From: Stenotrophomonas maltophilia D457 | Lineage (GTDB): Bacteria > Pseudomonadota > Gammaproteobacteria > Xanthomonadales > Xanthomonadaceae | DNA: 64,000 bases | Assembly: GCF_000284595.1 (NCBI RefSeq) | Contig: NC_017671.1 | Coordinates: forward strand, 2,699,001 to 2,763,000 | Direction of reading: 5' to 3' | In this document: one piece after another, positions 34,809 to 49,751 of the stretch | Layout: each line of letters begins with the position of its first letter | Numbering within the stretch: the first letter of the stretch is position 1 | Program-made: the position numbers and the translations under genes | The notes under the pieces: model-generated | Told to the model about the DNA's origin: nothing | Databases searched by the model: none | The model's input: the letters and a program-made list of their open reading frames with translations, nothing else

Positions 34809-35483
34809 ATGACCCGCCTGCTGATCATCGAAGACAACCCCGAGCTGGTTGCCAACCTGTATGCCTTCTTTGAACCGCTCGGCTACGTGCTGGACGACGC
34901 GCGCGACGGCGCCAGTGGCCTGCGCCGGGCCACGCAGCACGACTACGACGCCATCCTGCTGGACCTGATGCTGCCGCGCCTGGACGGCATGACGCTGTGC
35001 CAGAAGCTGCGCCAGGAGTTCCAGAACCCGGTGCCGATCCTGATGCTGACCGCACGCGATCCGGTCGAAGACCGTGTGCAGGGCCTGGCCCTGGGCGCGG
35101 ATGACTACCTGGTCAAACCGTTCTCGCTGGTGGAACTGGATGCACGGATCAAGGCCCTCGTACGAAGGGCACAGGGGCGCCAGGTCCAGAGCGTGCTGGC
35201 GTGGAAGGACCTGCAGGTGGACACGCGCTCGCCACAGGCCTGGCGGCAAGGCCGCTGCATTGCGCTGACGCCCACGTCGCACAAGCTGCTGATGTGCCTG
35301 GTGCGTGCAGCTCCCGCCGTGGTGCGCAAGCAGGAGATGGAATACCTGGTCTGGGGCGACGAGCCACCGGACAGCGGCGCGCTGCGAACCCACATCCATG
35401 AGCTGCGCCTGCAGGTGGACCGCAGCTTCGACACCGCGCTGATCACCACGGTGCACAGCGTCGGCTGGCGCATGCAGGCGTGA
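34809..35483 (+). CDS. colR: OmpR-family response regulator, ColR-like
   Basis: 224 aa. The receiver domain has the acidic pocket IIEDN, the phosphoacceptor Asp in AILLDLMLPRLDG (about residue 54) and the Lys in YLVKPF. The DNA-binding domain is a winged helix ending VWGDEPPDSGALRTHIHELR and ITTVHSVGWRM; PDSxxLRxHxHxLR and TVHxVGxRM are close to Pseudomonas ColR. The GTG of the kinase gene overlaps its stop. Pseudomonas and Xanthomonas ColR control envelope genes, and dgkA and eptA lie just downstream here. Confidence 0.75.
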   Translation: MTRLLIIEDNPELVANLYAFFEPLGYVLDDARDGASGLRRATQHDYDAILLDLMLPRLDGMTLCQKLRQEFQNPVPILMLTARDPVEDRVQGLALGADDYLVKPFSLVELDARIKALVRRAQGRQVQSVLAWKDLQVDTRSPQAWRQGRCIALTPTSHKLLMCLVRAAPAVVRKQEMEYLVWGDEPPDSGALRTHIHELRLQVDRSFDTALITTVHSVGWRMQA

Positions 35484-36721
35484 GCCCTGCCTCCCTCTAC
35501 CGCCGCCTGAGCCTGCGCACCCGCATCACGATCTCGTTCGTGCTGTTGATGGCCGGTGCCATGGGCTTCATCGTACTGGCCGAACAGGTCGACTACGACC
35601 AGGTCCGGGCTGCTGTCGTCGCACGGACCCAGCACGGCGAAGTGCAAAGGCTGCAGGCCGCGCTGGATCGTGGCCAACGCCCCGCCCTGCCACCAGGGAC
35701 CCAGCTGTTCGATGCCCAGGACGTGCCATTCGTACTGCGCCAATACGGCCCGGGCTACCACGGCGAAGAGGCGCCCAACGAGTGGCACCTGCGTGTGTTC
35801 GACAGTGGTGGCCAACGCTACTACCTGCTGCAGGACGCCGCACCCTATGGCTATCTGGAACACCTGATCAATGCCTTTGCGGCACTGGTCATTTCGGTCT
35901 GCGTGCTCGGCGCCTTCCTCATCGGCCGCAAGGTCGCTACCCACGTCATCGCGCCCATCACACGATTGGCCGATGCGGTGCAGGACGGCCACAAGCCCTT
36001 ACCCTACCAGGACGCACGCGACGAGATCGGCGTGCTCGCGCGCGCCTTTGCCCGCCATAGTGACGAGCTCGAACGGTTCCTGCATCGCGAGCAGTGCTTC
36101 AGCGGCGATGCCAGCCACGAGCTGCGCACGCCCTTGGCCATCATCGGCGGTGCTGCCGAAACGCTGGCCTGCCAGCTTCCGGCCGACAGCCACCTGGTTC
36201 CCAGCGCGGCACGCATCCTGCGTACCACCCAGGAGATGCAGCGCCAGCTGACCTGCCTGCTGCTGCTCTCGCGTGCCCCCGGCGCCGTGCCGCGCAACGC
36301 GGTGGCCCTGCGTCCGCTGCTCGAATCCTCCATGGAGCGCTGCCAGCCCTGGCTTTCCGGCAAGCCGGTGACCGTTGCGTTTGATGCCCGGCATGACGCC
36401 GTGCTGGTCACCAACGCGGATCTGGCGCACAGCATCATCTGGAATCTGCTGCGCAATGCCTGCCAGTACACCGAAAGCGGCGAGGTGCGAATCACCCTCC
36501 ACGACACCGCACTCATCGTCGCTGACACCGGACCCGGCCTGCCGTCCAGCATCGACCCACGGCAGTTCCAGCGCTTCGTGCCCGGTGGCGCGCACAGCGG
36601 CGAGGGGCTGGGGTTGTCGATCGTGCAGCGCATCGTCGAGCACCTGGGCTGGACGATGACCGTGCAATCCTCCGGGCAGGGGTGCCGGTTCACCCTGCGC
36701 TGGCCCCGCCCCCGCATCTGA
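35480..36721 (+). CDS. colS: sensor histidine kinase, ColS-like
   Basis: 413 aa. Two membrane helices (ITISFVLLMAGAMGFIVL and INAFAALVISVCVLGAFLI) bracket a periplasmic sensor region of about 110 aa, then HAMP, the HisKA box FSGDASHELRTPLAII with the phosphorylated His (about 218), N-box NLLRNACQYTESG, and G-boxes VADTGPGLPSS and GEGLGLSIVQRIVEH. The GTG start overlaps the response-regulator stop. The periplasmic domain should detect an envelope signal, metal ions in known ColS proteins; the ligand is not readable here. Confidence 0.75.
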   Translation: MSPASLYRRLSLRTRITISFVLLMAGAMGFIVLAEQVDYDQVRAAVVARTQHGEVQRLQAALDRGQRPALPPGTQLFDAQDVPFVLRQYGPGYHGEEAPNEWHLRVFDSGGQRYYLLQDAAPYGYLEHLINAFAALVISVCVLGAFLIGRKVATHVIAPITRLADAVQDGHKPLPYQDARDEIGVLARAFARHSDELERFLHREQCFSGDASHELRTPLAIIGGAAETLACQLPADSHLVPSAARILRTTQEMQRQLTCLLLLSRAPGAVPRNAVALRPLLESSMERCQPWLSGKPVTVAFDARHDAVLVTNADLAHSIIWNLLRNACQYTESGEVRITLHDTALIVADTGPGLPSSIDPRQFQRFVPGGAHSGEGLGLSIVQRIVEHLGWTMTVQSSGQGCRFTLRWPRPRI

Positions 36722-36733
36722 CGGATTCCTGAC
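36717..36733 (+). promoter_or_regulatory. tandem TC(C)TGAC repeats before dgkA
   Basis: TCTGAC (36717) and TCCTGAC (36727) are direct repeats about one helical turn apart, overlapping the stop of the kinase gene and 47 bases before the dgkA ATG. Similar half-sites stand before eptA at 37175-37193. OmpR-type regulators bind such tandem repeats; control by the adjacent ColR-like regulator is inference. Confidence 0.35.
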
Positions 36734-36779
36734 ATCGGGCTGCACATGCTCCGGGCTGCTCCCCCGCTCTGGAGACGGC

Positions 36780-37166
36780 ATGCAGCACCCCAAGGACAGC
36801 GGCAAGTACCCGCACGGCAAGACCGGATTGAGCCGCATCTTCCACACCCTTATCCATTCGCGCGATGGCTTCATCGCCACCTTTCGCGGCGAGGCGGCGT
36901 TCCGCCAGTTGTTGCTGCTGCACGCGCTGCTGATGGCGGCTGCGTTCGTGCTGGACATCAGCACGGTCGAGCGGGCACTGGTGCTGGCGGTCTGCTTCAT
37001 CAGCCTGCTGGTGGAACTGCTCAACTCGGCGATTGAAGCCGTGGTTGATCGCATCTCGCTGGAGAAGCATCCGCTGTCCAAGAACGCCAAGGACATGGGC
37101 AGCGCCGCGCAGACCACCGCGTTGTTGATGGTGGGTGCGGTGTGGGGCGTGATCCTGCTGGGCTAG
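36780..37166 (+). CDS. dgkA: diacylglycerol kinase
   Basis: 128 aa inner-membrane enzyme (E. coli DgkA 121 aa) that phosphorylates diacylglycerol to phosphatidic acid. GLSRIFHTLIHSRDGF and the signature LVELLNSAIEAVVDRISLEK with the metal-binding Glu are clear, with three membrane helices. GGAG five bases before the ATG is a good ribosome site. It lies between the ColRS-like genes and eptA; EptA releases diacylglycerol when it uses phosphatidylethanolamine, so the kinase recycles its by-product. Confidence 0.93.
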   Translation: MQHPKDSGKYPHGKTGLSRIFHTLIHSRDGFIATFRGEAAFRQLLLLHALLMAAAFVLDISTVERALVLAVCFISLLVELLNSAIEAVVDRISLEKHPLSKNAKDMGSAAQTTALLMVGAVWGVILLG

Positions 37167-37174
37167 CCCGGCAA

Positions 37175-37193
37175 TCCTGACAACTTCCTGATA
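37175..37193 (+). promoter_or_regulatory. tandem TCCTGAYA repeats before eptA
   Basis: TCCTGACA (37175-37182) and TCCTGATA (37186-37193) are direct repeats offset by 11 bases, one turn of DNA, 47 bases before the GTG of the phosphoethanolamine transferase. They match the half-sites before dgkA. This is the geometry bound by OmpR/PhoB-type regulators. Confidence 0.4.
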
Positions 37194-37239
37194 AGGCCGT
37201 TTCGATACTGCGCGCACTCCTGTTCCGCGGAACCTGCTC

Positions 37240-39048
37240 GTGCGTCAATGCCTCCGTTTCCCGCGATCCCATCCAATCGTTCTGGTCTGGGCCGCCGCAC
37301 TGTTCTTCGCCACGATTGGAAACATTGCCCTCTGGAAGACGCTGTGGGGGCTGATCGATCTCAACAGCCTGCGCAGCATGCTGTTCCTGGCCAGTCTGCC
37401 GCCGCTGCTGTTCTGCCTGTTCAACCTGCTGCTGACGCCACTGCTGGCACTGCCATTCCTGCGCAGGCCGCTGCTGTTGCTGCTCGTTGTCGTCAGCGCC
37501 GCGTGCAGCTACTTCATGCTGCACTACAACGTGCTGATCGATCGCAGCATGGTGCAGAACGTGTTCGAGACCAATCAGGCCGAACTGAACGCCTATCTGT
37601 CGCTGCCGCTGCTGTTGACCCTGCTGGCGCTGGGCGTGCTGCCCGCTGCCGGGCTCGCCCTGGTGCGCACCACCAGCGGGGCCGGTTCGATACGTTCGCT
37701 GCTGGTGTGGCCGGCCAACGTCCTGGCGTCGCTTGTGGTGCTGCTGGTGATCGGCTTTTCGTTCTACAAGGACTACTCCTCGCTGCTGCGCAACAACCGC
37801 TACATCCGCGACCAGGTACTGCCGTTGAACGTGGTGCGCCATACCCACGGCTACCTGAAGAGCCTCTACAGCACCCGCCAGCAACCGTTGCGCCCAATCG
37901 GCACGGACGCGCGGCGCGTTCCGGGCCCGCGCCCGAAGCTGGTGGTCATGGTCGTCGGCGAGACCGCGCGTTCACAGAACGTCCAGCTCAACGGCTACCC
38001 ACGCGCGACCAATCCCCGGCTCTCGCGCAAGGATGGCGTCATCAGCTTCAGTGATGTTTCCTCATGCGGAACCGCAACGGCGATTTCGGTACCGTGCATG
38101 TTCTCGCAGATGACCCGCCAGCAATACGACGACGTCCGCGCGGCGACCGAGGAGAACGTGCTGGACATCCTGCAGCGTACCGGCGTCGGCGTGCTCTGGC
38201 GCAACAACAACAATGGCGGCTGCAAGGGCGTGTGCGAGCGCGTGCCGACCGAGGACATGCCCGCACTCAAGGTGGCCGGCCAGTGCGTCAACGCCGACGG
38301 CACCTGCTACGACGACGTGCTGCTGCATCGGCTCGGCGCACGCCTCGACGCCATCCATGGCGATGCCCTGGTCGTGCTGCATCAACTCGGCAGCCATGGG
38401 CCGACCTACTTTGAACGGTATCCCGCAGCGTCGCGGGCCTTCAGCCCGACCTGCGACAGCAACCAGATCCAGCACTGCAGCAACGAGGCACTGGTCAACA
38501 CCTATGACAACACCCTGGTGCATACCGACCAGGTGCTGGCGGAGACCATCGACCTGCTGCAGGGCTATTCGGACCACCGCGACGTTGCGCTGATCTATGT
38601 CTCCGACCATGGTGAGTCGCTCGGCGAACGCGGCATGTACCTTCACGGCACGCCCTACTTCATCGCCCCGCGCGAACAGACCCAGGTGCCGATGGTGATG
38701 TGGCTCTCAACGGAGTTCAGCCGCAACGCGGGCCTGGACATGGCCTGCCTGCGTGGGAATGCGCTGCGCCGCGCCTACAGCCACGACAATGTCTTCCATT
38801 CCCTGCTGGGCCTGTTCGGTGTCAGCAGCAGCGTGTACCAGCGCGATCTGGATGTCTTCGCCGGCTGCCGGGCGACGACCGGCGCGCCGCTCGCCACCGC
38901 GCCGGCCAAGCGGCACCGGCTGATGCCGGTCACCGCCCGGAACGTGGCGCGTTACTGTGCGGCCAGGGCGAAATCCAGGCCGGCGCATACCGCCGCCACC
39001 TGGGCGTCGTTGCATTCCTGCGGGTTGGTGCGCGGGCTGTCCGGGTAG
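37240..39048 (+). CDS. eptA: lipid A phosphoethanolamine transferase (EptA/MCR family)
   Basis: 602 aa. Five N-terminal membrane helices (to about residue 185) precede a periplasmic sulfatase-fold domain: VVGETARSQNVQLNGYPR, the nucleophile Thr in CGTATAISVPCMFS, and metal ligands in YVSDHGESLGERGMYLHG. Several Cys pairs suggest disulfides. It transfers phosphoethanolamine from PE to lipid A, which lowers binding of cationic peptides such as polymyxins. The family usually ends near DVFAGCR; about 55 further residues continue into sequence that is antisense to the M14 peptidase gene. Start is GTG at 37240. Confidence 0.9.
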   Translation: MRQCLRFPRSHPIVLVWAAALFFATIGNIALWKTLWGLIDLNSLRSMLFLASLPPLLFCLFNLLLTPLLALPFLRRPLLLLLVVVSAACSYFMLHYNVLIDRSMVQNVFETNQAELNAYLSLPLLLTLLALGVLPAAGLALVRTTSGAGSIRSLLVWPANVLASLVVLLVIGFSFYKDYSSLLRNNRYIRDQVLPLNVVRHTHGYLKSLYSTRQQPLRPIGTDARRVPGPRPKLVVMVVGETARSQNVQLNGYPRATNPRLSRKDGVISFSDVSSCGTATAISVPCMFSQMTRQQYDDVRAATEENVLDILQRTGVGVLWRNNNNGGCKGVCERVPTEDMPALKVAGQCVNADGTCYDDVLLHRLGARLDAIHGDALVVLHQLGSHGPTYFERYPAASRAFSPTCDSNQIQHCSNEALVNTYDNTLVHTDQVLAETIDLLQGYSDHRDVALIYVSDHGESLGERGMYLHGTPYFIAPREQTQVPMVMWLSTEFSRNAGLDMACLRGNALRRAYSHDNVFHSLLGLFGVSSSVYQRDLDVFAGCRATTGAPLATAPAKRHRLMPVTARNVARYCAARAKSRPAHTAATWASLHSCGLVRGLSG

Positions 39049-39872
39049 ACCTCGGTGGTGGTGGCAAAGCGTGCATCGGTGAAGCCGGCGCAGGCACCAA
39101 TCGAACGCGATTCGCCCCAGACCACGCCCGGCGACTGCAACGGCAGGCCGACCAGGTTGCCCTCGGCGTCGGCCGGGGCGATATGGGTGACCGGGGCGAC
39201 GGCGGCGATCAGGGCCTTCTGGAACTCGGCCTGCGGATCCTCGCTGTTGCCGATCACGTAGAAGCCGTCCGGAATGGTGTCGCGCTCGAACGGCTTGCCG
39301 TCGCGAGCGCAGCGGGCCGGATCGAACTCGTGCAGGTCGCTGTCGGTGGTCTCGTGCAGGTCCAGGTGCACCAGCAGGTTCGGCTTGCGCTCGGCCACCC
39401 AGCGCATCAGCGCGGCGGCTTCCTCGATCTGGCCGCCGTCACGGAAGCTGCGGTTCGGGTCGACGGCATCCGGGTTCCAGCGCTGGATGCGCTCGTAGCC
39501 CCATGGGCTGACGCACGGCGCCACGATCAGGTTCAGCCGGCCCAGGTAGCGCTCGGCCTGCTGTTCCAGGAACTGCAGGGCGCCATGCACGCCACTGGTC
39601 TCATAGCCGTGCACGCCGCCGGTGATCAGCGCGGTCGGCAGCGCCGGGTTCCAGTCGTGGTTGACCACGGCGAACAGCGGGTAATGGTCCGGCGCGTAGT
39701 CCAGCTGACCGTACTGGATCACATCGAAGCTGTCGTCCAGGCGTTCAAGCGCGGCCACCACATCGTCGTGGTAGCTGCGCTGGCGCTGCTGGCGGGCCCG
39801 CCACTGTGCGCGTTCCGCGTCGCCCCAGGGCTGTCCGGGGGTGCCGATCGGGTAGAACTGCGCAACAGTCAT
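38952..39872 (-). CDS. M14-family metallocarboxypeptidase
   Basis: 306 aa cytoplasmic zinc peptidase. GGVHGYE provides the first His/Glu zinc ligands (HxxE) at about residue 85 and VHLDLHETTDSD the third His; NPDAVDPNRSFRDGG matches the substrate-binding Asn-Arg segment; the catalytic Glu is likely in TTTEVYPDS. The ATG at 39872 precedes the conserved start; the frame remains open further upstream without homology. Its 3' end overlaps that of eptA by 97 bases, tail to tail. Confidence 0.88.
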   Translation of the reverse strand: MTVAQFYPIGTPGQPWGDAERAQWRARQQRQRSYHDDVVAALERLDDSFDVIQYGQLDYAPDHYPLFAVVNHDWNPALPTALITGGVHGYETSGVHGALQFLEQQAERYLGRLNLIVAPCVSPWGYERIQRWNPDAVDPNRSFRDGGQIEEAAALMRWVAERKPNLLVHLDLHETTDSDLHEFDPARCARDGKPFERDTIPDGFYVIGNSEDPQAEFQKALIAAVAPVTHIAPADAEGNLVGLPLQSPGVVWGESRSIGACAGFTDARFATTTEVYPDSPRTNPQECNDAQVAAVCAGLDFALAAQ

Positions 39873-39981
39873 TGGGGAACTCCAGGGGTCGAACGGATGG
39901 GTGCAGCCGGACATTCTAAGCCTTGTCGCGCCCGCGGGCCCCTCCCCCGGCCCCGCCTTCATCCAGCCGGGGTCATCTGGT

Positions 39982-40016: not shown

Positions 40017-40670
40017 ATGGCGAACGCAGCGCAGCCGGTCCTGGGTGGACCGGAGTTCCTCCGCCTGCTCGCCCGTCTCAGCGACGGCGCGATGCCGGCC
40101 ACCAGTCCCGCCCTGACCGATCGCCTCGGCCAGTGGGTGGACTGGAGCCGCGCCGTGGCCCTGTCCGGGGCGCTCGGCGGACGCCTGCCCGAGCCCGGTG
40201 AAGCCGCCGAAGCGCTCGAGGATGTGCTGGCCGACTGCGCGCAGGCGCACGCCAGCCTGCTGGCCTCGATCAGTGAGGATGCCGAAGCCGAGCGCCTGCT
40301 GGACCTGGCCGAAGCCGCCGCTGTACCCAACTTCGCCTCGCTGCGCCAGCGCTATCGGGTGCTGCAGCAGGCCATCCAGACCGCCACCGGGCGCCTGCGC
40401 GGCCGCCTGCGCGACCAGCTGGTGCAGGTTTCGCCCGAGCTGGCGCGGCTGGCCGAGGTCGATGCGGTGATGGAACAGACCCTTACCCCGCGCGAGCACA
40501 GCCTGCTGGCCACGGCGCCGGCGGTGCTCGGCGCCCGGTTTGAACGCGTGCACGGCCAGCCCGGCTGGCGCGCGGCCTTCCGCCATGACATGCGCACCCT
40601 GCTGCTCGCCGAGCTGCAGCTGCGCTTCCACCCGATCGAAGGGCTGCAAGACGCCCTGCGCTCCCACTGA
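40017..40670 (+). CDS. DUF3348 protein, first gene of the MotAB/ZorAB-like operon
   Basis: 217 aa, soluble and mostly helical (EALEDVLADCAQAHASLLAS, LRQRYRVLQQAIQTATGRLR), with RLLARLSDGAMPATSPALTD near the start and FRHDMRTLLLAELQLRFHPI at the end. The pattern is that of DUF3348, proteins of unknown function that are encoded before DUF802 membrane proteins. The next gene begins ten bases after its stop. The ATG at 40017 has no visible ribosome site. A role in the cytoplasmic part of the motor complex is inference. Confidence 0.7.
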   Translation: MANAAQPVLGGPEFLRLLARLSDGAMPATSPALTDRLGQWVDWSRAVALSGALGGRLPEPGEAAEALEDVLADCAQAHASLLASISEDAEAERLLDLAEAAAVPNFASLRQRYRVLQQAIQTATGRLRGRLRDQLVQVSPELARLAEVDAVMEQTLTPREHSLLATAPAVLGARFERVHGQPGWRAAFRHDMRTLLLAELQLRFHPIEGLQDALRSH

Positions 40671-40680
40671 CCGGAACACC

Positions 40681-42945
40681 ATGTCCAGAACTGCTTTCCA
40701 TGTCGTTGTTTTCCTTGTCGGCCTGCTGGCCGTGTGCTGGATCGGCATTGGCTACGTTTCGGTGCATCCGCTGGGTGCAGCGGTGGCGGCGATCATCGCG
40801 GCCTGCTACGTCGCCGGTGGCGTGGAGCTGTATCGCTACCGCCAGGCCAGCAACGGCCTGCGCAGCGCGCTGAACGACCTGTCCAGCGCGAAGGAAAGCC
40901 TCGCCGCCTGGCTGGAACGCGTGCCGCTGGGCCTGCGCAACGCCGTGCGCCTGCGCGTGGAAGGCGAGCGCACCGCCCTGCCCGCACCGGTGCTGACCCC
41001 ATACCTGGTTGGCCTGCTGGTGCTGCTGGGCATGCTCGGCACCCTGCTGGGCATGATGGACACGCTGCGTGGCACCGGCCTGGCGCTGCAGAGTGCGACC
41101 GACATGGCCGCGATCCGCGGCTCGCTGGCCTCGCCGGTGCAGGGCCTGGCGGTGGCATTCGGTACCTCGATCGCCGGTGTGGCCAGCTCGGCCATGCTCG
41201 GCCTGCTGGCGGCACTGCTGCGTCGTGACCGCCTGCAGGCCGTGCAGCAGCTGGACCGCGCCATTGCCGGCGACCTGCATCCGTACTCGCAGGCCTGGCA
41301 GCGCGCCGAATCGCTGCGCCTGCTGCAGGCACAGTCTGCGGCGCTGCCGGCGCTGGTCGACCGCCTGCAGGCGATGACCAGCACTTTTGAACAGCACAGT
41401 GCGGCCGCCAATGAGCGCCTGCTGGCCGGCCAGGCCGAGTTCCTGACCCAGAGCCAGGCCCTGCAGGAACGCCTGGCCGTCTCGCTGCAGCAGTCGCTGC
41501 GCGAAGGTGCCGAAGCCAGCGCCGCCGCCATCGGTGGTGCGCTGCAGCCGATGGCCGAAACCACCCTGGCTGGCCTGGCCCATCACGGCGAAGCACTGCA
41601 TGCCCGCGTCGAGCAGGCCGTGCAGCGGCAGCTGGCCGGCCTGAGCGAGGGTTTCGAGCGCAGCCGCGTCGCCACCGAGGCCAGCTGGGCCAAGGTGGTG
41701 AGCGAGCAGACCCAGGCACAACAGGCGCTGGTCAGTGATCTGCGCCAGCACCTGCAGGCCTTCAGCGATGGCCAGGGCACGCACGCCGAAGCACTGGTCG
41801 CGCGTCTCGGCGAGCGCCTGCAGGCCGATGCCCGCGGCAATGCCGAGGCATGGCGCGCCGCCGCCGAACAGCAGCAGGCACTGAACAGCGCGCTGGTCGA
41901 ACGCCAGCAGCAGGCGTTGCTGGCCTCCAGCGAGCATCTGGACGCGCGCGCGCAGGCGCTGCTACAGGCGCTGGAGCAGCACCACAGCACCAGCCAGGCG
42001 CTGCTGCAGGACCACGAACTGCAGCGTTCGCAGCAGTGGCAGGCCGCGCAGGCCGCTGCCGCGGCCGCGCACGCCGAACTGCAGGCTGGCCTGGACAGCC
42101 GCGAGCAGCAGCGCCAGGCGCGCTGGGACGCGATCAACGCCGAGCTGCAGCAGGCCCACGCCGCGCTGCAGGCGCAGCTGCAGGCCGGCGACGAACAGCG
42201 CCTGCAGCGCTGGAGCGAAGCCTTGCAGCACGTTTCCAGCGACCTGACCGAGCGCCTGCAGGCCAACGGCGAACACCTGGCCGCGCAGCAGCAGCAGGTC
42301 TGCGACACCCTGGCGGCCACCGCACAGCAGATCGGCGAGAACGGTCGCGCGCAGGCCAGCGCCACGCTGGCTGAAGTGTCTACCCTGCTGCAGACCGCCG
42401 CGGCCGCTCCGAAGGCTGCTGCCGACGTCATCAACGAGCTGCGCAGCACGCTGTCCGAGAGCCTGGTGCGTGACAACGCGATGCTGGAAGAGCGCGGCCG
42501 CCTGCTGGCCACCGTGCAGACCCTGCTGGATGCGATCAATCACGCTTCGCACGAGCAGCGCACCGCTGTGGACGCACTGGTCGGTGGCTCGGCCGAGCTG
42601 CTGGAGCGCGTTGGCAATCGCTTCACCGACCATATCGCCGCAGAGACCGGCAAGCTGGATGGAATTGCCGCAGCGCTCAACGGCAGCGCTGCCGAAGTGG
42701 GCCAGCTGGCCGGCACGTTCGGCGAAGCGGTCGCGCAGTTCGGCAGTGCCGCCACCGAGCTGTCCGGCCGCCTGGAACAGATCGGCGGCGCACTGGATGC
42801 CTCGCTGGCCCGCAGCGACGAGCAGCTGGCCTACTACGTAGCCCAGGCGCGCGAGGTGGTCGACCTCAGCCTGCTGTCGCAGAAGCAGGTGATGGAAGAA
42901 CTGCAGCAACTGGCCGCGCGCCGCGGCAAGGCCGGCAGCGCATGA
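40681..42945 (+). CDS. DUF802 membrane protein with MotA/ZorA-like core and long coiled tail
   Basis: 754 aa. Two N-terminal helices (HVVVFLVGLLAVCWIGIGYV and a second at about 30-48) are followed by a MotA/TolQ/ExbB-like pair: YLVGLLVLLGMLGTLLGMMD (about 105-125) and VQGLAVAFGTSIAGVASSAM (about 150-175). From about residue 210 to the end the sequence is a Gln/Ala/Glu-rich coiled coil of more than 500 residues. ZorA of the Zorya defence system has the same plan: an ion-channel core with a long cytoplasmic tail. The OmpA/MotB-type partner overlaps its stop. Function of the operon is unknown. Confidence 0.75.
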   Translation: MSRTAFHVVVFLVGLLAVCWIGIGYVSVHPLGAAVAAIIAACYVAGGVELYRYRQASNGLRSALNDLSSAKESLAAWLERVPLGLRNAVRLRVEGERTALPAPVLTPYLVGLLVLLGMLGTLLGMMDTLRGTGLALQSATDMAAIRGSLASPVQGLAVAFGTSIAGVASSAMLGLLAALLRRDRLQAVQQLDRAIAGDLHPYSQAWQRAESLRLLQAQSAALPALVDRLQAMTSTFEQHSAAANERLLAGQAEFLTQSQALQERLAVSLQQSLREGAEASAAAIGGALQPMAETTLAGLAHHGEALHARVEQAVQRQLAGLSEGFERSRVATEASWAKVVSEQTQAQQALVSDLRQHLQAFSDGQGTHAEALVARLGERLQADARGNAEAWRAAAEQQQALNSALVERQQQALLASSEHLDARAQALLQALEQHHSTSQALLQDHELQRSQQWQAAQAAAAAAHAELQAGLDSREQQRQARWDAINAELQQAHAALQAQLQAGDEQRLQRWSEALQHVSSDLTERLQANGEHLAAQQQQVCDTLAATAQQIGENGRAQASATLAEVSTLLQTAAAAPKAAADVINELRSTLSESLVRDNAMLEERGRLLATVQTLLDAINHASHEQRTAVDALVGGSAELLERVGNRFTDHIAAETGKLDGIAAALNGSAAEVGQLAGTFGEAVAQFGSAATELSGRLEQIGGALDASLARSDEQLAYYVAQAREVVDLSLLSQKQVMEELQQLAARRGKAGSA

Positions 42946-43580
42946 GCGACGAGCTGGAGGTCGACGGCGGTTCGCATGCCCCGATCTGGGCAGCCTTCGG
43001 CGACCTGATGTCGGTGCTGCTGGGCGCGTTCGTGCTGATACTGGTCGGTGTGGTCGCCGTGCAGCTGGAGCTGTCGCAGCGACTGGACCAGGAAGTGAAA
43101 CAGCGCCAGGCCGAAGCCAAGCGCCTGCAGACGCTGGAGCAAGCGTTGGCTGGACCGCTGGCGGCCGGCCGCGTGACGCTGGTGGATGGCCGCATCGGCA
43201 TCAGCGGCAGCGTGCTGTTCGCGCTGAACTCCGACCAGCTGCAGCCGGAAGGCCAGGAGCTGCTGCGCAGCCTGGCCGCACCGCTGGCCGCCTACCTGGG
43301 CAGCCGCGAAGAGATCCTGATGGTCAGCGGCTTCACCGATGACGCGCCGGTACGCGAAGGCAACCGGCGTTTCGCCGACAACTGGGAGCTGTCGGCGCAG
43401 CGCTCGCTGACCGTGACCCGCACCCTGATCGCCGATGGCGTACCGGCTGACGCCGTGTTCGCCGCTGCGTTCGGCAGCGAGCAGCCGGTCAGTTCCAATG
43501 CCGATGAGGAAGGCCGCGCACGCAACCGTCGCGTCGAGATCGCGCCGATTCCCAAGCCCAAGGCCCCGGATGCCAAGTAA
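42942..43580 (+). CDS. OmpA/MotB-like protein, partner of the DUF802 protein
   Basis: 212 aa. A single N-terminal helix with the motif WAAFGDLMSVLLGAFVLIL places a conserved Asp (D21) at the start of the membrane segment, as in MotB, PomB and ZorB, where it carries the ion. A short coiled coil follows, then an OmpA-type peptidoglycan-binding domain: VSGFTDDAPVREGNRRFADN, WELSAQRSLTVTRTLIADG and EEGRARNRRVEIAP. It would act as the stator half of an ion-driven motor that grips the cell wall. ATG overlaps the DUF802 stop (ATGA). Confidence 0.82.
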   Translation: MSDELEVDGGSHAPIWAAFGDLMSVLLGAFVLILVGVVAVQLELSQRLDQEVKQRQAEAKRLQTLEQALAGPLAAGRVTLVDGRIGISGSVLFALNSDQLQPEGQELLRSLAAPLAAYLGSREEILMVSGFTDDAPVREGNRRFADNWELSAQRSLTVTRTLIADGVPADAVFAAAFGSEQPVSSNADEEGRARNRRVEIAPIPKPKAPDAK

Positions 43581-43953
43581 GTCGCCAGCGCTCGAAGGCC
43601 TGCGCGCACTGGTGCGCGACCTTGATGCAGGGTCGCGCTCGCTGCCGCATTACCCGCAGGTGCCGATGCTGCAGCAGGTGCAGCGCGAGTGGACGGAGCT
43701 GCGCAGCGAACTGCAGGTGCGCCGCTCCCTGCGCACAGAGGCCCCGGCTGACGGCGGCCCGCTGAACTCGGCGGTGCTGGTGCAGCGCATGCTGGACACG
43801 ATGCAGGCCACCAGCCCCGGCTACCTGCGCCACTTCATCGACTACGTGGACACCTTGTCCTGGCTGCAGGCACTGCAGGATGGCGCCGCCAGCGGTGCGG
43901 ATAGCGCAAAGCCGAAGCGCACGCGCAAGCCGCGCCAAACGCCGAAGGAGTAG
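43570..43953 (+). CDS. DUF2894 protein, last gene of the motor operon
   Basis: 127 aa, soluble, helical, with a Lys/Arg-rich C-terminal tail (AKPKRTRKPRQTPKE). VPMLQQVQREWTELRSELQV and LDTMQATSPGYLRHFIDYVD match the DUF2894 pattern, a family of unknown function found after DUF802/OmpA genes. It overlaps the OmpA-type gene by 11 bases. Its TAG stop is part of the GTAG end of a SMAG repeat. Confidence 0.72.
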   Translation: MPSKSPALEGLRALVRDLDAGSRSLPHYPQVPMLQQVQREWTELRSELQVRRSLRTEAPADGGPLNSAVLVQRMLDTMQATSPGYLRHFIDYVDTLSWLQALQDGAASGADSAKPKRTRKPRQTPKE

Positions 43954-44239
43954 CGCCGGCCGCTGGGCGGCAGCTACGCATCTCCGCGCGGGTCATGGGG
44001 TTGCCGGCCAGCGGCCGGCACTACCATCGCGGGTGCTCTGTGCGCGGAACACGATCTGCGCTGCGCTTCGGTTCTGCCGTGGTACTGCCGGCCGCTGGCC
44101 GGCAGCTACGCGTCTCCGCGCGGGTCATGGGGTTGCCGGCCAGCGGCCGGCACTACCATCGAGGGTGCTCTCTGCGCCGCAGCGCGATCTGCGCTGCGCT
44201 TCGATTCTGCCGTGGTAGTGCCGGCCGCTGGCCGGCATC
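43950..44239. repeat. cluster of five SMAG palindromes in a 132-bp tandem duplication
   Basis: Five GTAG...CTAC-type hairpins with the core GCCGGCCGCTGGCCGGC stand at about 43950-43977, 44001-44025, 44082-44108, 44132-44156 and 44215-44239, in alternating orientation. The unit 43971-44102 is repeated as 44103-44234 with few differences. The first element supplies the stop of the DUF2894 gene and the last abuts the stop of the RAYT transposase, which is the enzyme thought to mobilise such repeats. Confidence 0.85.
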
Positions 44240-44684
44240 ACACCCAGTCCGACCACGCATGCGGATACTCGCCAATCTGCCCAGCAAGACCGGCGCGTAC
44301 CGGATTCCCCAGGATGTACAGCGCTTGCCGCGCCATCGACTCCTCGGCCCTCACGGCATGATCGAAGTAGCCGGGCTGCCACACCGTACTTCGACGGCCC
44401 GCCAGGCGATTCAGGGCAAGCGCGCTCGACGATTTCATCCGGCGTGCGATGTCTGGAAGGTCAGCTGCGCGCAGCTCGAACATCCAGTGGACGTGATCCG
44501 GCATGACGACCCATGCGTGTGACCGTACGAGCCCGCGCTGCTCGATGTAATCGAACTGGTCGATCACACATGCTGCAGCAGCTTTGCTTTCAAGGAGCCG
44601 GCGGCGCTGATGCGTGGTAGTTGTCAGAACGTAGACCTGGCCGATGATCGAGTGACGGCCCAGGCGGAGGCGATGGCTGCTCAT
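44238..44684 (-). CDS. REP-associated tyrosine transposase (RAYT)
   Basis: 148 aa IS200/IS605-like Y1 transposase. MPDHVHWMF holds the HUH metal-binding pair (about residue 63) and QALYILGNPVRAGLAGQIGE the conserved tyrosine (about 122). RAYTs recognise REP palindromes as single-stranded hairpins and are considered the source of their spread. There are no insertion-sequence ends; instead five SMAG palindromes lie on one side and two on the other. Start at 44684 (MSSHRLRLGRHSIIG); an ATG seven codons earlier is possible. Confidence 0.9.
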   Translation of the reverse strand: MSSHRLRLGRHSIIGQVYVLTTTTHQRRRLLESKAAAACVIDQFDYIEQRGLVRSHAWVVMPDHVHWMFELRAADLPDIARRMKSSSALALNRLAGRRSTVWQPGYFDHAVRAEESMARQALYILGNPVRAGLAGQIGEYPHAWSDWV

Positions 44685-44767
44685 GCGCCATGGTGGGTCG
44701 ATCATTGGGCGTTGGCTGTCGGGCCCTGCCTCGATGGAGGTTGGGAGATGTCTGAAGTTGAATGAGG

Positions 44768-44829
44768 TTGCCGGCCAGCGGCCGGCACTACCGGGGGCCG
44801 TAGGTTGCCGGCCAGCGGCCGGCACGACC
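44768..44829. repeat. two SMAG palindromes upstream of the RAYT gene
   Basis: Two copies with the core TTGCCGGCCAGCGGCCGGC are at about 44768-44791 and 44804-44829. Together with the cluster on the other side they flank the RAYT gene. They lie between the RAYT start and the entA stop. Confidence 0.82.
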
Positions 44830-44854
44830 ACAGCCGGCAGGCGGCCGTCGGGGC

Positions 44855-45613
44855 TCAGCCGCGCAGGGTGGCGCCGCCGTCGACGTACAGGTCGCTCATG
44901 GCCACGTGCCCGGCCTGATCGGAGAGCAGGAACATCACCGAGTGCGCGATGTCCTCGGGGGTGGCCAGCTTGCGCAGTGGAATGCCGGCCTTGTAGGTCT
45001 CCAGGCTGCCGGCGATCACCCGCTCGGCACCGTGCTCGTCCTGCCACATGCCGGTCTGCATCGGGGTCAACGTCGATCCCGGGGCGACGATGTTGCAGCG
45101 GATTCCCAGCGGCGCCAGCTCCAGCCCGAGGCAGCGGGTGAACATGGTGGCGGCGGCCTTGGATGCCGCATAGGCGGCCATCCCGTGTCGCGGCACACCG
45201 GCCGCATTCGAGCTGACGGTAACCATCGCGCCCTGCCCGCGCGGCGACATCACCCGCGCCAGGGCACGCCCGACATGGAACACGCCGTCGGTGTTCACCG
45301 CGAACACCCGGCGCCAGTCGTCATCGCCGGTCTCGGTCACGCCGCCCACATGCAGCACACCGGCCACGCTGGCGGCCAGCATGATCGGCCCGATGCTGGA
45401 CTCGACCCGATCCACCAAGGCGTCGACGGCCGCACTGTCGGTCACGTCAAGAGCAAACGCCTGCACACGTGCATCCGCGAACATGGGTGCCTCGCGATCG
45501 GTCGCCACCACGGTGCAACCGGCCGCGGCCAACAGCCGTACCAGTGCCTCACCGATGCCCCCGGCGGCACCGGTCACCAGCGCCACACGACCTTCAAAAC
45601 CGGTCAATTGCAT
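44855..45613 (-). CDS. entA: 2,3-dihydro-2,3-dihydroxybenzoate dehydrogenase
   Basis: 252 aa short-chain dehydrogenase that oxidises 2,3-dihydro-DHB to 2,3-dihydroxybenzoate. The NAD site is [20 protein letters not shown]; the catalytic Ser is in [14 protein letters not shown] and the Tyr/Lys in AAYAASKAA. The start overlaps the last ten bases of entF. It is the last gene of the minus-strand entS-C-E-B-B'-F-A operon. Confidence 0.92.
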
Positions 45614-48600
45614 GTTGCGGTCTCCTGTTGCTCGTCCCAGTGGCGCAACCGCGCCGACAACCACGGTGCCAGCTGCGCCACCGCATCGCGGCCGGTCAGT
45701 TCGGCGTGCAGGAACGGCAGTTCCAGTGCCTGCACCTTGCGCGCGTGGCTCCGCCACAACGCCGACTGCAGCTGTGGCCGCGCCTGGTGATCCCGGCCAG
45801 CGCGGACGTGCACCAGCGTGCCCTCGAACGGCCGGTGGATATGTTCACGGATCAGCCGATTGGTACCGGTCACCGCGCGCACCACGCCGTCAAGCACCAC
45901 ATCCGGCAGGCTGCCCAGTGCACTCCCGCCGCGACGCAGGAACGCGAGTATGCGTTCCCGGCTGTCCAGTTCCGGATGCGCATCCGGGTCGTGGCCGGCA
46001 ATCGCCAGTAGTGCCCGCAGTGCGGCGATGGCGTCCGGTTCAGGCTCGGCCCGCCAGCACTCGCTGGGATAGGCGTCCAGCAACACCAGTTCGCCGACGT
46101 CGCGGCCGATCTCATGCAGCCGCACCGCCATCGCCTGGGCGAGGATGCCGCCCACCGACCAGCCCAGCAGATGCACCGGCCCCTTCGGCTGTAGTGCGAC
46201 CACGCGCTGTACGTAATCGTTGGCCATCGCCTCGATGCTGCTCGGCAGTGGCAGCCGCGCGTCCAGTGCCGGCGACTGCAGGCCATACACCGGGCGGGCT
46301 GGTTGCAGTGCCCGGGCGAGGGTGCGGTAGTTCCAGGCGATGCCACCGGCCGGGTGCAGCACGAACAGCGGAGTGGGCCCGGCAGCGTCGGTTGCGGCCA
46401 GCGCGATCACCGGCCCCAGCGCGTGATCGGCCAGCGCGGGTGGCGCGGCAATACGAACCGCCAGCGCGGCCACGGTGGGCTGGGCAAACAAGGCGCCCAA
46501 ACCCAGATCGCAGCGCCAGCGCTGCTCGATCGCCAGCAGCAGGTGCACCGCCGACAGCGAGTCACCGCCGAGACTGAAGAAGTCCGCATCCACCGCCACC
46601 GGCGCCTCACGCCCAAGCGCCTGTGCGAACAGCAACGCCAGCTCTTGTTCCAACGGCGTGCGCGGCGCCAAGCCGGCAACTTCACGTTGCGGTGGCTTCG
46701 GCAACGCGTTGCGGTCGAGCTTGCCGTTGGCGGTCACCGGCCAGTGGTCCACACCAACGATGGCCGAGGGCACCATGTAGTCAGGCACACGCGTGGCGAG
46801 GTGGCTGCGCAGCATTACGGCATCGGCAAGCGCGGTCGGCACATAGGCCACCAGACGCGCTTCGCCGGGAGCATCCTGGCGTAGCTGCACTTCCACCCGC
46901 TCCATGCCCGGCAGTTCGCGCAAAGCCGCCTCGATCTCGCCCAGTTCGATGCGCAGGCCGCGCAGTTTCACCTGATGGTCGCTGCGGCCCAGGTACTCCA
47001 CCGCACCATCGCGGCGCCAGCGCGCCACGTCGCCGGTGCGGTAGATGCGCTCGCCCGCCAGGAAAGGATCGGCAAGGAAGCGTTCGGCGGTCAGATCGTC
47101 GCGACCGAGATAGCCGCGTGCCAGCTGCACGCCGCCCAGGTACAGGTCACCGGCCACACCGACCGGCACCGCCTGCATCCGGGCGTCCAGCACGTACAGG
47201 CGGGTGTTCCAGACCGGGAAGCCGATCGGCACCGGCCGCGAGCGATCCTGCGCTGACGCCGGCCAATAGCTGACGTCCACTGCGGCCTCGGTCGGGCCAT
47301 ACAGGTTGTGCAGTTCTGCGTGCACGCGCGCATGGAAGCGGTCGCGCAACGCAGCGTCCAGCGCCTCGCCACTGGTGAATACGCGGCGCAGCTGCAAACC
47401 TTCGGAGGCCGGCGCAGCGAGGAAGGCGTCGAGCATCGACGGCACGAAATGCGCGGTGGTGATGCCATGGCCCCGGATCAAGCGCGCCAGTTCAGTGGGA
47501 TCGCGATGCGCATCGGGCCTGGCAACCACCAGCGTTGCCCCGCACAGCAGCGGCAGGAAGAATTCCCAGACCGAGACATCGAAGGTGGCCGGGGTCTTCT
47601 GCAGCACGCGGTCATCGGCGCCGATGTCGTAGTGCTCGCGCATCCACAGCAGGCGATTGACGATCGCGCGGTGTTCGACGACCACGCCCTTGGGCTCGCC
47701 GGTCGAACCGGAGGTATAGATCACATAGGCGGCATCGCTGGGCGCAGGATCCGCCCATGGCGCCGCGAAACTCAGCGCGGTCCACTGCTCCGGCGCGAGC
47801 ACCGGCACACCGGCCACGCGCACCGATACGTCTGGCGCAGCCAGTACGCACACCGGCTGCGCCGACGCAAGAATACGTGCCAACCGCTCGTCAGGATGGG
47901 CAAGGTCCAGCGGAAGATAGGCCGCGCCTGCGCGCAGCACCGCGACCAGCGCGAGCACCAGTTCCAGCGAGCGCGGCAATGCCACCGCGACTACGCTGCC
48001 CGGGCCGACGCCCATCCCGCGCAGTTGTGCGGCAAGCGCGAAACTGCGCGCTTCCAGCGTTGCATAGTCGAGCGTAGTGCCGCCGAACACCAGCGCCGGC
48101 GCGTGCGGATCCCGATCCATGCCCTGCTGCAGCAGTTCAACCAGGGTAGTCTCGGGAAGCGCGTGCGCGGTGGCATTGAAACCGTGCAGCACCTGCTGCG
48201 CCTCCTCAAGCGTCGCCAACGGCACGGCTGCAATATCGTCAGCCTGCAATGCTGCCGACACGAAATGCAGCAACCGCGCTGCATGCGCATCGACATCCTC
48301 GCGACTGTACAGCGCGGGATTGGCCTCGATCTCCAGATCGAGAAGGTGCTGGCCATCGCCACGGAAGCCCAGTGTCAGATCATCCACCGGCCCGGTGCAC
48401 AGCACCTCCAGCGTCGCCTGCACGCCGGCCAGCGCCAGCGGCTTGTAGAACGGCTGCACATTCACCAGCGGACCGTGCAGGCGCTGCTGCGCGCCGACCA
48501 GCCCCAGGTCGCGGCGCAGCTGCTCACTGCGGTAACGGCCGTGCTTGCGACCCTGGCTGAGCTGCCGGCCCAGGCCGCGGGTGAAGGCCTCGACGCTGCC

Positions 48601-49494
48601 CTCGCCGGCCGCTACGCGCAGCGGCAACACGTTCATCACCATCGCCGGCACCCGCGCCGACGCGTTGCCGAGCCGGCCCATGTAGGGCACGCCCAGCACC
48701 ACTTCATCGGCAGCGCTCATCCGCCGCAGGTACTCGGCCGCCAGCGCGGCCAGCACATCCGGCCAGGGCTGCAGCCAACGTGCCGACGCCTGCAGCAGCT
48801 GCTCGCGGAAGGCCGCATCGAGCGGCCGCACCCAGCGCAGCGCATCGTCGCTGGCCGCCACGGTGCCTGCCAGGCCCACGCCCGCCGGCGCCCCCTGCAA
48901 CTGCTCGCGCCACCAGCGCCCGGCCTGCGCACGACGCGGGTCGGCACGATAGGCGGCGTCATCCGCCAGCACGCCCGCCAGCCCTGGCAGCGGTTCAGCC
49001 ATGCGACCGGCATGCAACGCGCACACGCGATCGGTGAACAGCGCCATGCCGTAGCCATCGGCGGCCAGATGATGCACGCGCAGGTACCAGACCCAGCGCT
49101 GCCCGCCCAGGTCAAACAACACCTGCTGACTGATCCGGTCACGGGTGGGATCGACCGGGCTCAGACGGTCGGTGTGCATCAGGTTGCGTGCCGCAGCGGC
49201 GGGATCCGCCGCGGTGGAAACATCGCGCACCGAAAGCAGCGGCACGTGTGCCGGGTCATGCCACTGCAGCGGCTGGCCATCGGCCCCTTCGGCAAAGCGC
49301 AATGCGAAGGCCTGGGCCTCGCCTGCAGCCTGGTCTGCCGCTGCAATGAACGCGGCCACGTCCAACGGGCCGTCGATCCACACCGCGTGCGCGGTATTGA
49401 ATGACGGATTGTCCGGTGCCAGCCGCTGTGCGAACCACAGTCCGGCCTGGGCCTCGGTCAATGCCACCGGTGTGGCCAGCGCAGCGGCGTTCAT
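45604..49494 (-). CDS. entF: enterobactin synthase component F (serine NRPS)
   Basis: 1296 aa single-module NRPS, matching E. coli EntF (1293 aa). Condensation domain with [14 protein letters not shown] (about 135-145), adenylation domain with [20 protein letters not shown] (about 600), carrier domain with [15 protein letters not shown] (about 985), and a thioesterase with nucleophile [15 protein letters not shown] (about 1120). It activates serine, joins it to DHB from the aryl carrier protein, and cyclises the trilactone. The ATG overlaps the stop of the small carrier protein gene. No MbtH-type partner gene (ybdZ) was found in this cluster. Confidence 0.93.
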
Positions 49495-49751
49495 GCGTTC
49501 TGCGCGGCCTGCAGTTGCTGCACCACAGCCCACCACTGGCGCAGCGTGGTGTGCTCGGCCAGCTGCGAGAACTCAATGGGCAGGCCGGTGTTGCCCCAGG
49601 CCAGGACCAGGCCGAGCATGCGCATCGAGTCCAGGTCCAGGTCGATCAGGTTGTCGTCGTCACCGATCTCGGCCGGGGCACATTCCAGCACGCGCGCCAC
49701 GTCGGCACGCATGCGCTCCAGATCCAGCACCTCACCCGTGGCGGCCATCAC
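49491..49751 (-). CDS. stand-alone aryl carrier protein (EntB C-terminal domain)
   Basis: 86 aa. LIDLDLDSMRMLGLVLAWG contains the Ser that takes the phosphopantetheine arm and matches the ArCP domain of E. coli EntB. In E. coli this domain is fused to the isochorismatase; here it is a separate gene overlapping both the isochorismatase stop and the entF start. It carries DHB, loaded by EntE, to EntF. Often called entB' in S. maltophilia. Confidence 0.9.
   Translation of the reverse strand: MMAATGEVLDLERMRADVARVLECAPAEIGDDDNLIDLDLDSMRMLGLVLAWGNTGLPIEFSQLAEHTTLRQWWAVVQQLQAAQNA

Follow-up and report, generated by a model that had tools for sequence, protein, structure and literature searches.

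Judged by its sequence, the operon at positions 40017-43953 is a Zorya type III system, a known and already classified system type which would form a cell-wall-anchored, ion-driven motor. We consider it likely that this motor acts on a conserved tail end through a tail whose length can be adjusted, and that the two small partner proteins DUF3348 and DUF2894 dock at this end. The finding is real and, as a published system type, ordinary in kind. Beyond the known class, our analysis adds a near-core distribution, a tail length that changes by whole modules, a DUF3348 protein predicted to be helical and a basic DUF2894 C-tail.

Results and discussion

Operon layout and assignment to Zorya type III

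The window, the 64,000-nucleotide stretch of DNA analysed here, is part of a single chromosome of 4,769,156 bases. It holds four plus-strand genes in the order DUF3348-ZorA-ZorB-DUF2894 which overlap or nearly abut, with a gap of 10 bases between DUF3348 and ZorA, an overlap of 4 bases between ZorA and ZorB and one of 11 bases between ZorB and DUF2894 (Table 1). The initial annotation had described this four-gene operon with coordinates, domains and Asp21 that were all correct, and the coiled tail of more than 500 residues it had proposed agrees with the approximately 550 residues that we found after the ZorA motor core.

Table 1. Features of the operon and its neighbourhood (window coordinates).
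Feature	Position	Strand	Details
Histidine kinase, diacylglycerol kinase, EptA-type phosphoethanolamine transferase (upstream neighbours)	within 35480-39929		
M14/AstE-like hydrolase	within 35480-39929		divergent from operon
DUF3348 gene	40017-40670	+	217 aa; Pfam 1.5e-58; PADLOC ZorG3 254.2 bits
ZorA/DUF802 gene	40681-42945	+	754 aa; PADLOC ZorA3 1080 bits; MotA/ExbB-like motor subunit, long tail
ZorA motor core, residues 101-180 with T121, T162, S163	40981-41220	+	mean conservation 0.92
ZorA variable middle tail, residues 331-540	41671-42300	+	conservation 0.43; relatives gain or lose tandem modules here
ZorA conserved tail end, residues 557-640 and 709-732, proposed docking site	42349-42876	+	conservation 0.84 and 0.92
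ZorB/OmpA gene	42942-43580	+	212 aa; PADLOC ZorB3 384.6 bits; MotB-like helix and peptidoglycan-binding domain
ZorB Asp21 codon, proposed ion-carrying aspartate	43002-43004	+	invariant in 24 ZorB
DUF2894 gene	43570-43953	+	127 aa, short form; Pfam 4.6e-25; PADLOC 225.9 bits
Y1/IS200-like transposase gene	44238-45047	-	
Short-chain dehydrogenase and 1310-aa condensation/adenylation/thioesterase protein	44855-49536		

The PADLOC type III models match all four proteins (bit scores in Table 1), the best type I and II scores being far lower (ZorA1 45.6 bits, ZorB1 67.3 bits), and none of the four operon proteins matched the ZorC, ZorD or ZorE models of PADLOC. The seven window neighbours scanned with Pfam carry other domains. 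The window's zorA and zorB are flanked by DUF3348 and DUF2894 genes, the arrangement for which the name Zorya type III was introduced in 2021; the definition in PMC8565338 prints the zor pair as 'zorBC', while the discussion section there speaks of ZorA, ZorB, ZorF and ZorG. A 2025 paper repeats this definition and lists Stenotrophomonas among the main carriers (PMC11890865). The names of the two partners are swapped between sources: DUF3348 is ZorF and DUF2894 is ZorG in the 2021 and 2025 papers, and the reverse holds in PADLOC-DB 2.0.0. The NCBIfam Zorya models do not take in these operon proteins. ZorA reaches 27.5 bits against a cut-off of 100 for the antiphage ZorA model NF033915, which describes another ZorA subfamily, and the NCBI equivalog for ZorB is titled 'hypothetical protein' only. 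The earlier description of a ZorAB-type machine whose operon holds no recognised nuclease or helicase thus stood, while the gene set proved to be more than Zorya-like, having already been named. Since the operon is devoid of a recognised nuclease or helicase, DUF3348 and DUF2894 are the candidates for sensor or effector.

In PMC8565338, a Stenotrophomonas nitritireducens locus expressed from a plasmid in E. coli BL21-AI reduced plaque formation by at least one phage, which supports the defence reading. Among named loci, those most similar to the window in ZorA and ZorB come from Stenotrophomonas maltophilia and its close kin, members of the same genus as this tested representative.

Gene order was compared in 69 regions. 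Of the 87 DUF3348 carriers within the genus, 39 were included, together with every one of the 29 DUF3348-carrying genomes from outside the genus in the order sample, and genome G030. The four genes occur in the same order in 68 of these; G030 shows DUF2894 only, on a 3,283-base contig beginning inside ZorA. Among 80 named loci, the best 80 of at least 540 ZorB relatives, all four genes were counted in 72 under our first counting rule. DUF3348 is present in two of the remaining eight, its 3' part lies at the contig edge in three and the sequence is cut before DUF3348 in two, leaving L265 as the one named locus of the 80 in which DUF3348 was not found. Because the order is constant in 68/69 regions and 72/80 named loci hold all four genes, the gene set is not a chance grouping.

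The probable ZorA-ZorB motor

In ZorA, Pfam places DUF802 at two positions (5e-09 over the full protein), and MotA_ExbB scores 20.8 bits, below its cut-off of 22.9. Compared with PDB sequences, a profile of 37 ZorA cores gave a single convincing match (E 1.4e-5; the following one 0.071), namely ZorA of 8vvn, the solved Shewanella type I Zorya structure. The conserved G-T and T-S motifs of the ZorA core align with the same motifs in 8vvn ZorA, and T121, T162 and S163 are invariant across the 37 sequences. The OmpA domain of ZorB (PF00691, 5.6e-18) is assigned from sequence only. ZorB contains the GDLMSVLLG motif with Asp21, which is conserved in 24/24 aligned ZorB proteins (F[GA]DLM in 70/70), and it is 67-87% identical to 23 relatives. 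A profile of 24 ZorB sequences matches MotB-type and OmpA-type proteins and aligns with 8vvn_B over residues 9-206 (E 4.7e-8), while the MotB_plug model of Pfam stays under its cut-off (13.2 bits against 24).

By analogy, ZorA and ZorB probably form a 5:2 inner-membrane ion motor, and the wall-anchored, ion-driven machine suggested earlier is probably right. For types I and II, PMC11890865 reports solved ZorA5B2 structures, a requirement for both the ZorA tail and the ZorB wall-binding domain, and recruitment of ZorE to the membrane in dependence on ZorAB. A study on stator evolution treats Zorya as a remote relative (PMC12505986).

The likeness of ZorB to MotB and OmpA could also be read as indicating an accessory flagellar or surface-motility stator. 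Presence of the operon does go with FliG (both in 65, Zor only in 20, FliG only in 38 and neither in 75 of 198 family genomes, uncorrected for kinship), and the window's own genome has FliG. However, FliG is absent in 20 of the 85 carriers, 11 of them in one genus, and the MotB plug model remains below threshold. The long tail, DUF3348 and DUF2894 are not known as stator parts, and we regard a stator role as extremely unlikely.

A ZorA tail of variable length with a constant end

Conservation over 135 ZorA sequences is highest in the motor core and in the last stretch of the tail end, lowest in the middle tail and high again in the first stretch of the tail end (Table 1); a less conserved stretch separates the two parts of the end. 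The row counts 135, 147 and 149 come from pooling named loci with further genomes, two sets that overlap in part. In 22 of 25 Burkholderiales loci, ZorA length deviates by no more than 4 residues from 698 + 87n, where n is the number of extra modules and is zero in seven of the 22, and the lengths in the other three are off by 27 to 30 residues. At the DNA level, the extra tail sequence of locus L237 is a tandem array with a period of 261 and 5.0 copies at 86% matches, and the tail array of L244 has 2.8 copies. A Xanthomonas locus (L215) carries an array with a period of 186 (about 62 residues), and the ZorA tail of a S. rhizophila locus (L209) is offset by 51 residues. On a tree built without the tail region, at least 13 tail-length changes fall among the 25 Burkholderiales rows. 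In the window's own ZorA no long DNA array was found, only two DUF802 repeats.

Across 77 named loci with frames of more than 500 residues, type III ZorA ranges from 595 to 1046 residues. It thereby departs from the size constancy within Zorya families, component size being described as well conserved within each family in the passage of PMC11890865 on types I and II. The tails of L253 and L258 repeat best at 58 residues and the ZorA lengths of L253 and L257 fall about 29 residues below a whole number of 87-residue steps, hinting at a base unit of 29 residues.

A constant far end past a changing middle would be expected if partners dock at the end. Further, the combination of constant ends and a length-changing middle allows a direct test of the ZorA tail as a transmission rod.

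The partner proteins DUF3348 and DUF2894

The AlphaFold2 model of DUF3348 is all-helical with nine helices (pLDDT 88.5, pTM 0.82), and we consider the protein a candidate adaptor at the ZorA tail end. The Pfam match of DUF2894 covers profile positions 101-184 of 185. The window's protein has a GPLNS core, of which GPL is invariant among relatives. The N-terminal half is present in most relatives and missing in the window's clade (14 short forms in 77 rows); on the tree the short form requires two changes, one of them, the second, being in Luteibacter. The DUF2894 model also matched in Corynebacterium glutamicum, a species remote from the other carriers.

The C-terminal 25 residues of DUF2894 carry a net charge of at least +4 in 131 of 136 distinct sequences (142 of 149 pooled rows), the window's protein reaching only +4. 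The same test was positive for 0/117 DUF3348, 1/124 ZorA and 67/133 ZorB distinct sequences. Because half of the ZorB tails are basic too, a basic C-tail is not special to DUF2894.

Family scans with Pfam and NCBIfam named no catalytic domain in DUF3348 or DUF2894, and therefore the two proteins may not cut DNA themselves but obstruct or trap it, or bring in a host enzyme. Type III may thus stop phages in another way, or via a host enzyme. The result of the scans is also compatible with abortive depolarisation, in which the motor would open and leak ions, DUF3348 and DUF2894 serving only as its gate. The 2021 paper (PMC8565338) cites a proposed proton-channel role of ZorAB and proposes type III ZorF and ZorG as ZorAB regulators, which fits such a leak. 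However, in types I and II nuclease complexes are concluded to be recruited, according to PMC11890865, and a leak alone leaves the conserved tail end unexplained. We thus judge depolarisation to be very unlikely.

Distribution, mobility and inheritance

Among 91 species genomes of the genus, 87 carry DUF3348 and 88 carry DUF2894, the additional one being G030, and 47 carry the HSDR_N control. Neither marker is present in three genus genomes, two of which are at least 99% complete and one 76%. Wider carriage, own genus included, amounts to 85/198 genomes in the family, 42/200 in the order and 9/377 in the class. DUF3348 occurs on 27 of 72,556 plasmid records (20 non-mobilizable, 7 mobilizable, 0 conjugative), all of at least 366 kb and all from Burkholderiales genera or Azoarcus. 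ZorB at E 1e-40 likewise gave 27 plasmid records with identical genus and mobility counts, and the ten among the matches listed are all within the DUF3348 set. The HsdR control was found on 2,587 plasmid records, 1,041 of them conjugative. DUF3348 had no match in 50,697 phage records, and 123 pattern matches in viral contigs included no confirmed relative. Near-universal presence and the lack of conjugative plasmids are unlike the restriction control and count against a defence reading.

Mean identity over 69 genomes (2,346 pairs) was 76.7% for ZorB, 59.9% for ZorA, 53.2% for DUF3348 and 45.3% for DUF2894, compared with 80.5% for GyrB; across two families, ZorB identity was 74.9% versus 69.1% for GyrB. 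The tree of the concatenated operon has 25 of 66 splits in common with gyrB; of its 50 strong splits, 19 are contradicted by strong splits of the gyrB tree. The operon is therefore resident but sometimes replaced by transfer. In a 78-row tree, built from the window together with 77 named loci, the 25 Burkholderiales rows form one supported clade, while Stenotrophomonas needs two changes. In L126, from a genome of another family (G165, f12), the Zor operon is nested inside a Stenotrophomonas lineage and was likely acquired by transfer.

Flanking genes were called by a simple G+C rule and named by likeness to the window's genes. Downstream siderophore-type genes recur (short-chain dehydrogenase in 18/68 regions, EntF-like in 15/68) while other flanking genes change between groups. 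We take the 1310-aa protein of the window to resemble the EntF siderophore synthetase. Directly 3' of the operon (43954-44240) and beside the transposase gene, palindromes of the type GCCGGCC-GC-GGCCGGC are repeated at 44003, 44087, 44135 and 44220; these are presumably REP elements with their own transposase.

These data bear on the alternative that the operon is a resident envelope or DNA-maintenance machine whose anti-phage effect is secondary and was seen on plasmid expression, which we consider unlikely though worth keeping in mind. Carriage of DUF3348 by 87/91 genus species, a ZorB identity across families above that of GyrB, the lack of phage-record matches and the 0/27 conjugative plasmids favour it, as do the histidine kinase, diacylglycerol kinase, EptA and EntF-like protein among the seven scanned neighbours. 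Published expression data count against a defence reading: PMC12584637 does not name Zorya III among the systems called active in Burkholderia cenocepacia, and within each predicted Zorya I or III locus it reports a transcript change on phage infection for no more than the leading one or two genes. However, phage protection was measured for a relative (PMC8565338), and two species at 99-100% completeness are without either marker gene, so that the operon is not essential to the genus. Carriage amounts to 85/198 in the family and 9/377 in the class, the operon tree is partly incongruent with gyrB, and the distribution of the three Zorya types is called typical of anti-phage systems in PMC11890865.

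Proposed mechanism

In the motor reading that we prefer, the OmpA domain of ZorB would tie a ZorA5:ZorB2 motor to the cell wall, an assembly proposed by analogy with the type I and II structures. If the envelope is disturbed, for example by phage entry, this would free the motor, and ions passing Asp21 would turn ZorA against ZorB and thus move the cytoplasmic tail. The tail would serve as a transmission rod, its length variable by whole modules and its far end nearly constant. The DUF3348 helical bundle may dock at the tail end as an adaptor, and the basic tail of DUF2894 may contact nucleic acid.

More tentatively, and with the odds against it in our estimate, the operon could be a chromosomal machine that is resident and near-core in Stenotrophomonas, not a roaming defence cassette, its ZorA shaft evolving in whole-module steps (Burkholderiales 87 residues, a Xanthomonas about 62, a S. 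rhizophila about 51) with motor and end fixed. The shaft would then drive a non-enzymatic DUF3348/DUF2894 head, and selection would tune tail reach, not catalysis.

Comparison with known systems

The 2021 survey counts 6,401 type III loci, against a combined 7,742 for types I and II (PMC8565338). Our literature search, to which most subscription papers were out of reach, returned among the matches listed no study on how type III works, on its tail modularity or on near-core carriage. Zorya type III is simply listed in a Variovorax study (PMC11953036), and ZorA and ZorD homologues of Xylella fastidiosa are judged an incomplete system in PMC9148166. Types I and II have been solved, and the type II effector is a nickase, as PMC11890865 states.

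The present operon agrees with Zorya type III as defined by Payne 2021 (PMC8565338) in all four genes and domains. Compared with type III elsewhere, the window's lineage differs by its short DUF2894, and comparison with other Stenotrophomonas lineages gives identities of roughly 45-60% for ZorA and DUF3348. Zorya type I (ZorABCD; 8vvn) shares the ZorAB motor plan, the Asp, the OmpA domain and the long tail, whereas its ZorC and ZorD are absent among the four operon proteins and the tails of type III relatives vary in module number. The motor plan is likewise common to Zorya type II (ZorABE; 8vvi), whose ZorE nickase is absent among the four proteins. The flagellar MotAB/PomAB stator resembles the operon in its ion-carrying Asp helix and peptidoglycan-binding domain; the operon differs from it by a MotB plug score below cut-off, by the extra tail and partners and by its occurrence in genomes without FliG.
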